DNA from: Candidatus Hydrothermarchaeum profundi
GTDB taxonomy: Archaea > Hydrothermarchaeota > Hydrothermarchaeia > Hydrothermarchaeales > Hydrothermarchaeaceae
NCBI GenBank assembly: GCA_002011125.2
Contig: MTMF02000008.1
Coordinates: 1 to 64,000, forward strand
Reading direction: 5' to 3'
DNA length: 64,000 nt
Shown: one piece after another, positions 6,363-8,903 of the stretch
How the letters are laid out: each line of letters starts with the position of its first letter
How positions within the stretch are numbered: position 1 is the first letter of the stretch
Notes under the pieces: model-generated
What the model was told of the DNA's origin: nothing
The model's database searches: none
What the model saw: only the letters and a program-made list of their open reading frames with translations
Program-made: the position numbers and the translations under genes

Positions 6363-6824
6363 ATGATAATGGAAAAGCGTCTATCTGTCACTTTAGTAAT
6401 CTGTATTATTTTAGTAGGTGTTTCCGGATACCTATTTGCTAAAACGTCAACTCTAGAAAAAGAGATCGCCAAGAAAAACATTGCTATAGAAGAGGCAAAA
6501 AAGGAGATTAATTTGCCTATTGGATCCCAAGATGCAATTGATATAGCTAAAGTGGACCAGGAATTCATAACTTTCGCTAGTAAATACTTCAGAGATCCAA
6601 ACCTTAGAGTCGAACTTGCCTCATTACAGTTAGATGAGCGATTTGGATATGTATGGAAAGTTGAGTTTATCGAGCGAGCCTGTGGATGTGCTGGCATTGA
6701 AAACCTTACTTCAATGGAGTTTTATATTGACCCGGAAACAGGAGAGATTTTGAAAAAAGAAAAGAATATTGGAGTAAGTGAAGAATTCCTTGCTAGGAAA
6801 AACTGTGAAAAGGGATGTCACTGA
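6363..6824 (+). CDS. Membrane-anchored extracellular protein with PepSY-like domain
   Basis: 153 aa. A single N-terminal hydrophobic helix ([19 protein letters not shown]) acts as signal anchor, followed by a short coiled coil ([20 protein letters not shown]). The rest looks like one PepSY-type alpha/beta unit (DAIDIAKVD... VWKVEFIE ... [14 protein letters not shown]). It contains a cysteine cluster CGCAG and a second pair near the C-terminus (NCEKGC), so disulphides or metal binding are possible. The true start may be ATG 6369 (MEKRLS), two codons in. It lies 11 nt after the PRC-barrel gene and converges on tgt with a 7-bp overlap of the stops. Function unknown. Confidence 0.65.
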
Positions 6825-7903
6825 TACCTCTGAAACTCCGACTTAAAGTCATTAAATCTATCCTCTATGATAGCTTGCCGTGCTTCTTTCATCAGCTGCT
6901 GTAAGAAATATAAGTTGTGTATTGTTATTAGTCTCATACCCAAAGTTTCGTAGACCTTCATCAGATGGTGTATATAGGCTCTTGAATAGTTTTTGCACGT
7001 AAAACAAGAGCATCCCTCTTCGAGAGGAGAAAAGTCTTCGCTAAACTTCCCTCTAGTTATATTATATTTTCCTTTCCAAGTGTAAACTGTGTTATGGCGA
7101 GCATTTCTTGTTGGAAAAGCACTATCAAATATATCTATGCCTGAAGAAATTGATTCTAAAAGCTCTAATGGAGAACCAACGCCCATGAGATATCTCGGTT
7201 TTTCTTCAGGTATAAGCCTGCAGGTATATTCTAAAATGTCTAACATAACTTCTTTTGGCTCACCTAGTGAGAGGCCACCTATCCCATATCCATCAAAGTC
7301 CATTATAACTAGTTCTTCAACAGCTTTTCTTCTCAAGTCGGGGTATGTTCCTCCTTGGATTATTCCAAATACAAGCTGCCCATTGCTTCGTAGGGTGATG
7401 CTTCTCTTTGCCCATTCGATTGTTCTAATAAGTGATTCGTTTATATAGGAGAATTCCTTGGTGAAAGGTGGGCAGTCATCTAACACCATAGCAACGTCAC
7501 TTTTAAGTGATGATTGTATTTCCATACACATTTCAGGGGTGAACAGGTGTTTAGTATTATCGAATGGAGATCTGAAGACTACACCTTTTCTGTTAACCCC
7601 TAAGAGAAAATCTTTTTTGAGCATTTGAAAACCCCCGCTATCAGTAAAGATCGTTCTATTCCAATTCATGAATTCATGTATGCCTCCAGCTTTTTCTATC
7701 ACTTCTACGCCTGGTCTCAGAAAAAGAATAAAGGCATTTGAGATTATAGCTTGAACTCCAAGATCTGCAACCTCCTGAGAGCTTAAAGTTTTGACGCTCC
7801 CTTTAGTTGCAACAGGCATGAAACATGGAGTTTCCACTTTTCCGTGTTTAGTATAGAGTTTCCCGGCTCTGGCAGTTCCCGATACATGTACTATCTCAAA
7901 CAA
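6818..7903 (-). CDS. tgt: Bacterial-type tRNA-guanine transglycosylase
   Basis: Exchanges guanine in tRNA for a 7-deazaguanine base. Visible family features are DSGGFQM (catalytic pocket, first Asp), [20 protein letters not shown] with the nucleophile region, and the zinc site [17 protein letters not shown] near the C-terminus. At about 361 aa without a PUA domain it matches the bacterial queuine-type enzyme acting on G34, not the 500+ aa archaeal G15 enzyme for archaeosine. The start is set at a TTG (7903): AGGTGG lies 5 nt upstream and the protein then begins [16 protein letters not shown], as in bacterial Tgt. It overlaps the 3' end of queA by 8 bp. Confidence 0.9.
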
Positions 7904-8903
7904 TAGGACCACCTAAAATTAGCATAGAGTCTCCAAAACTATAGAAGCGGTATCCCTCTTTAATCGCAATATTATATGCATTTAGAATTCTGTTGTGTCC
8001 AGCATAAGCGCAGACAAGCATCAGATTTGTCGATTTTGGTAAATGGAAGTTTGTTATCAACCCATTTAGTCTGCTTTTAAAGCTATATGGAGGATAGATG
8101 AATAAATCTGACCATCTTGATATAGGGGTTATAATCCCATTGGCATCTGCAGCACTCTCGAGAGCTTTGACGCTTGTGGTTCCACATGCAATTACTCGCT
8201 CTCCTTTATTTATTATTTCAGCGTTGATGTTATCTATTTCGAAGTATTCTGGATCTAGCTTGTGTTCTTCTATTTTTTCAACTTTAACAGGCGAAAATGT
8301 TCCTACTCCTACATGGAGGGTAATCTTGGCTATCCTTACGCCTCTCTTCTTAATTTTTCCCAATAATTCTTCAGTAAAGTGAAAACCCGCCGTTGGCGCT
8401 GCTATTGAACCAGGTTTTGTGGCGTATATAGTTTGATATTTTTCTAAAGAGATATTTCTTTTAATATAAGGGGGTAGAGGTGCCTCGCCGTACTTGTCTA
8501 GAACTTCTCTTACCGTGGTGTTATCTGGAAATCTAATTCTATATTTTCCGTCTCTAATTTCAACTATTTTTCCCTTTATATTTTTTTTAAAAAATATTTC
8601 TGTTTCCAAGCGTATTTTTTTTCCTTTTATCAGGAATATCCCATCTCTATCTTTCTCTTCTATGAATAGGCATTCTACCTTTCCGCCGGTCTTTTTATTG
8701 CCTGTAAGCTTCGCTGGAATTACTTTTGAATCATTTAAAACGAGGACATCTCCTTTACGGAAATATTGAACTATATCTGAGAATTTCTTATGTTCTATGT
8801 TCTCGCCCTCAATCACCATCAGCTTTGAGGAACTCCTTGGTTCTGCAGGCTGTTGGGCTATTCTTTCCTTTGGCAATAGGTAATCGAAATCCGATAGATT
8901 CAT
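7896..8903 (-). CDS. queA: S-adenosylmethionine:tRNA ribosyltransferase-isomerase
   Basis: QueA transfers and isomerises the ribosyl part of SAM onto preQ1-tRNA to give epoxyqueuosine. The 335-aa protein has all the usual blocks: [76 protein letters not shown] and the ending [13 protein letters not shown]. No Shine-Dalgarno precedes the ATG, but an AT-rich TATA-like TTTAATAAAATATT lies close upstream, compatible with a leaderless message. It is translationally coupled to tgt. The enzyme is typical of bacteria and rarely found in archaea, so acquisition by transfer is likely. Confidence 0.93.

Follow-up and report, generated by a model that had tools for sequence, protein, structure and literature searches.

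Bacterial-type queuosine genes alongside archaeosine genes in Candidatus Hydrothermarchaeum profundi and across its phylum

Introduction

The 7-deazaguanine bases of tRNA usually split by domain, with queuosine in bacteria and eukaryotes and archaeosine in archaea. An overlapping pair of bacterial-type tgt and queA genes in the archaeon Candidatus Hydrothermarchaeum profundi therefore raises the question of whether this organism could make queuosine as well, and how long its lineage has held the genes to do so. Queuosine genes in archaea are already known, and the accessible part of one report counts 34 genomes with them, including 12 from DPANN, and names Methanosarcinales in a figure (PMC8204110). 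Our literature search returned no paper on both Hydrothermarchaeota and queuosine, and no tRNA chemistry for the group. Here we analyzed the tgt-queA locus in a window of 64,000 nucleotides, the first 64 kb of the 135 kb contig C8, together with the rest of the genome and the phylum. The phylum consists of one class, from which 23 genomes were surveyed; the 14 with completeness of at least 90% are called good genomes below.

Results

The initial annotation described a bacterial-length Tgt with a CxCxxC zinc site overlapping a full QueA, and both descriptions held on closer analysis (Table 1). The two ORFs are full length and are not chance ORFs; the overlap between them is 17 nt, shrinking to 8 nt should the TTG at 7903 be the Tgt start. 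Both proteins exceeded the cut-offs of NCBIfam equivalog models, Tgt with 472.3 bits to TIGR00430 (cut-off 306.75) and QueA with 408.2 bits to NF001140 (cut-off 324) and 375.2 bits to TIGR00113 (cut-off 267.45). In Pfam they matched TGT (E=4e-146) and Queuosine_synth PF02547 (E=2e-119), respectively. Tgt remained below the cut-off of the arcTGT model (170.4 bits, cut-off 350) and scored 371 bits to Thermotoga maritima Tgt (2ash) versus 102 bits to arcTGT (1iq8), while T. maritima QueA (1vky) aligned end-to-end with the window QueA over residues 1-330 (E=3.5e-92). Bacterial-type Tgt and QueA in this archaeon are thus predicted to produce epoxyqueuosine at G34.

Table 1. Features of the window that bear on queuosine synthesis.
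Feature	Position	Strand	Description
queA	7896-8903	-	tRNA preQ1(34) S-adenosylmethionine ribosyltransferase-isomerase, 335 aa, ATG start
tgt	6818-7912	-	bacterial-type tRNA-guanine(34) transglycosylase, 364 aa, GTG start; overlapping and downstream of queA
Tgt CxCxxC zinc-site codons (CSCFTC)	6995-7012	-	from sequence; kept in 17/17 aligned phylum Tgt rows
Tgt Asp codon aligned with the bacterial Tgt nucleophile motif	7124-7126	-	from sequence; invariant across aligned rows
Iron-sulfur protein, QueG/reductive dehalogenase-related	59919-60734	-	271 aa

The Tgt active site was compared in an alignment of 17 phylum rows with bacterial Tgt and arcTGT. The three zinc Cys and the later His-Asn were kept in all 17 phylum rows, as were three Asp residues, those in DSGG/DNGG, in the LD motif and in FDS. 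We take the invariant Asp listed in Table 1 to be the nucleophile-motif residue, Asp280 in Zymomonas mobilis. Position 233 (Z. mobilis numbering) was Ile, Val or Leu in the phylum rows, a bulky residue like that of preQ1-using bacterial enzymes (Val in Z. mobilis), whereas queuine-using eukaryotic enzymes have Gly there (PMC3660597). Cys158 was retained in most phylum rows and replaced by Leu in families f6 and f7, and the arcTGT rows diverged at the specificity positions. All four GUN tRNAs of this genome (Asn, Tyr, His and Asp) have U33-G34-U35, and we infer that Tgt would insert preQ1 at G34 of these tRNAs.

Both a preQ1 source and an arcTGT, which the initial annotation had left to be looked for, were found in the genome. 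Contig C9 encodes a cluster of QueC, a DUF366 protein, a QueE-like radical SAM protein and a QueD-like PTPS, and it also carries QueF-II and QueH. In this preQ0 cluster queC and queE flank the DUF366 (PF04017) gene (L237 9910-10461, G000:C9, + strand), and a role for DUF366 in 7-deazaguanine synthesis is possible. QueF was distinguished from QueF-L by the TIGR03139 cut-off, the catalytic Cys/Asp and the motif E(S/L)K(S/A)xK(L/Y)(Y/F/W); QueF-L, an archaeosine synthase, is not known to have the QueF motif. The C9 protein scored 141.6 bits to TIGR03139 (cut-off 86.9), has the QueF motif as ELKSLKYY together with LCPWSGLPDF, and its catalytic Cys/Asp align with those of Bacillus subtilis QueF. 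By sequence it is of the QueF (preQ1 synthase) type and not QueF-L. This QueF-II (L176 10029-10715, G000:C9, - strand) has an extra N-terminal region of ~100 aa with no Pfam match, which is absent in most other QueF proteins of the phylum.

For the last step, the initial annotation had proposed the QueG-related iron-sulfur protein near the end of the window. The protein exists and has in common with the epoxyqueuosine reductase QueG an iron-sulfur, reductive-dehalogenase-like region, but it is shorter, reaches only 60.3 bits to the QueG model TIGR00276 (cut-off 200) and matches only 4Fe-4S domains in Pfam. It falls below both the QueG and the reductive dehalogenase family cut-offs, is slightly more similar to reductive dehalogenases, and was rejected as QueG; the pathway has no need of it. 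The last enzyme is likely QueH on C9 instead, which matched PF02677 over the cut-off (231.5 bits) and T. maritima QueH (7lc5) with 156.8 bits, with HVCCAPD, KRCExC and YCGC aligned. A candidate enzyme is thereby present for every step from preQ0 to queuosine. The same genome encodes an arcTGT of 635 aa and a split ArcS, a tRNA-modification gene set that by its composition is archaeal. No Rfam match to a preQ1 riboswitch was found in the window, in the queC, queF and queH stretches of this genome, or in the neighborhoods of its relatives.

This gene complement extends across the phylum. QueA and QueH were each found in 21 of 23 genomes and in 14/14 good ones. Bacterial-type Tgt was represented by 17 full or nearly full copies, with contig-end pieces in three more genomes; the three genomes where it was missing are 62-82% complete. 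Whole or partial arcTGT occurred alongside in every one of the 14 good genomes. Outside the phylum, QueA was detected in 11 of 371 archaea, some as fragments only and two of them single-contig genomes, and in none of four archaeal control genomes; the difference from the phylum gives a Fisher p of ~1e-24 with relatedness ignored. The queA and tgt genes are neighbors in ten phylum genomes and in three other archaea, and in relatives queA or tgt adjoins archaeal genes such as one for an archaeal Hel308-type helicase. Judging from the distribution of its genes, queuosine has probably belonged to this archaeal lineage for a long time rather than being a stray recent import.

The supply of preQ1 is the uneven part of this picture. 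QueF was found in six of the 23 genomes and in three of the 14 good ones, and since it is missing in 17/23 (11/14 good), one full route cannot serve the whole phylum. Divergent QueF proteins do not account for the gap: a profile of the six QueF sequences of the phylum itself picked up nothing further at E<=1 apart from one match of 12 bits that was broken by a stop. A PF02592 (QPTR) protein is encoded in seven of the QueF-less genomes, and the QPTR family imports preQ0 and preQ1 in Escherichia coli (PMC11130926). No genome had both QueF and QPTR, a mutual exclusion that is only a lead as it falls short of significance (p 0.12 counting genomes, 0.26 counting genera), and genera g3 and g4 and family f7 had neither. 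One QueF-less genome, G014, has a weak PF02592 gene (78 bits, L166 2269-2733, G014:C131) close to tgt-queA, a candidate preQ1 or preQ0 importer, and a stronger copy elsewhere (152 bits).

These observations would fit an incomplete pathway, with tRNA modification stopping at preQ1 or epoxyqueuosine, or an organism that depends mainly on salvaged precursors. The absence of QueF from most good genomes and the QPTR-type proteins speak for it, whereas the genome studied here has QueF-II and no PF02592 match, and QueH, the putative final enzyme, was found in all good genomes. We regard this reading as improbable, although it fares better than the alternatives that follow.

The initial annotation held that the genes were probably acquired by transfer, and the trees allow this only as an old event. 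The closest relatives of the window QueA are in its own phylum (61% identity); the nearest bacterial QueA found is at ~50%, and the nearest named proteins outside the phylum are clostridial. The bacterial sequences in the trees were drawn from E. coli, T. maritima, plasmid records and contigs with peptides in common with the window QueA, which makes the sample small and biased toward proteins that have such peptides. In an unrooted QueA tree, a branch at 98/94 separated all 26 archaeal rows from 39 bacteria of about ten phyla, and the phylum formed one group at 90/83. This broader tree leaves out two long-branch rows, G038 and a Balneolaceae. A narrower QueA tree gave the archaea-bacteria split at 92/73 and did not reject the phylum as one clade. 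In the Tgt tree, where the arcTGT outgroup branch is very long, 24 bacterial rows lay on one side at 99/98. Two tests, one of them on this tree (p-AU 0.26; the other 0.50), neither established monophyly of phylum Tgt nor rejected it.

The phylogeny of Tgt and QueA thus sets the window QueA with its own phylum and apart from the sampled bacteria, and because the archaeal QueA proteins form one clade apart from those bacteria, any transfer from bacteria is old and predates the radiation of the phylum. The trees fit such an early gain, an archaeal lineage of long standing, and either direction of transfer. A recent transfer into this one organism, for instance from a clostridial or thermophilic bacterium, could explain the clostridial nearest named proteins and the tgt-queA linkage, which is typical of bacteria. 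Against it stand the phylum-wide presence of QueA, QueH and Tgt and the grouping in both trees, and on these grounds we rejected a recent single-organism transfer as very improbable.

The contig itself could in principle be bacterial contamination binned with an archaeal genome, a concern raised by genes of bacterial type that are so rare in archaea outside the phylum. The genome is 2.19 Mb in 19 contigs, 97.65% complete, with a GC of ~38-40% and with chemotaxis and nitrate-reductase-like genes. The only tRNA-His found in it is on C8, so that this contig, 135 kb long, belongs to the archaeal genome. Contamination is further opposed by the higher identity of the window QueA to phylum proteins than to bacteria and by the archaeal genes that adjoin queA or tgt in relatives, and in practice the distribution of QueA throughout the phylum led us to reject it as having next to no probability.

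Two further features of the window were recorded. A molybdopterin oxidoreductase of 1155 aa with a Tat signal (37828-41295, + strand) is nearest to DMSO reductase type II alpha subunits, with a score far below the cut-off (331 bits, cut-off 985). Rfam (52 bits) detected a tRNA gene at 56440-56533 (+ strand) that ARAGORN missed; with 94 nt and a CAT where the anticodon would lie, it may be a tRNA-Met gene interrupted by an archaeal intron.

As slight as that of contamination is the probability that Tgt and QueA act elsewhere than on tRNA G34, as in 7-deazaguanine modification of DNA: a DpdA-like TGT paralogue, a DUF5591 protein and a HerA-type ATPase are encoded on contig C3 of the same genome, but DpdA is a separate gene, the window Tgt passes the G34 equivalog, QueH always accompanies QueA in good genomes, and no role of QueA outside tRNA is known. 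The DpdA-like gene (PADLOC DpdA, 46.5 bits) lies on a 25 kb contig (L255 5000-12553, G000:C3) with the HerA/DUF87 ATPase, the DUF5591 protein and a protein of 1408 aa that matched no family as neighbors, possibly a 7-deazaguanine DNA-modification or defense cluster.

Discussion

We consider it highly probable that in this archaeon a single preQ0 pool feeds two routes, the bacterial one to queuosine and the archaeal one to archaeosine. Here preQ0 would be produced by QueD, QueE and QueC. One share would be inserted at G15 by arcTGT and converted by ArcS to archaeosine, and another would be reduced by QueF-II to preQ1. Tgt would then place preQ1 at G34 of the four GUN tRNAs, QueA would extend it to epoxyqueuosine, and QueH would reduce this to queuosine, with the two central steps supplied by the overlapping queA-tgt pair of the window. 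Probably the ancestor of the phylum already had the trait. The genes, their motifs, their distribution and the grouping in trees are observed, whereas enzyme activity, choice of substrate, the tRNA modification and the ancestral state are our inference. Against this explanation count the scattered position of tgt-queA, QueF, QueH and QueC/D/E, which do not form one operon, the absence of QueF from 17 of the 23 phylum genomes, and the extra N-terminal region of QueF-II in this genome.

A close known counterpart is the bacterial queuosine pathway with QueH, as in T. maritima, for which homologues of QueD, QueE, QueC, QueF-II, Tgt, QueA and QueH are all present here with catalytic and metal-site residues kept. 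The difference is that these homologues are encoded by an archaeon, beside its arcTGT and ArcS, and that its QueA and Tgt stand apart from the sampled bacteria. The archaeosine pathway is in the same genome and would draw on the same preQ0 supply, but its arcTGT acts at G15 and is far longer than the 364-aa window Tgt, which misses the arcTGT cut-off. The archaeal genes in the accessible part of PMC8204110 include queA, queH and tgt, often near one another as here; those 34 genomes, which may include some of ours, are scattered, whereas here nearly all genomes of one phylum carry the set alongside the genes for archaeosine. What is less expected than archaeal queuosine genes as such is their near-universality in one phylum beside archaeosine, together with the QueF gap.

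More tentatively, and with less than even confidence, we propose that queuosine at G34 and archaeosine at G15 together are an ancestral core state of the whole phylum, based on its own archaeal QueA/Tgt lineage, and that members with neither QueF nor QPTR (g3, g4 and f7) use an unknown preQ0 reductase or preQ1 importer.

If almost all genomes of a phylum encode both modifications, this would blur the split by domain and would show two transglycosylases in one cell drawing on one preQ0 pool. The finding also bears on the origin of Tgt and QueA, and the QueF-less members point to a missing step in preQ1 supply.
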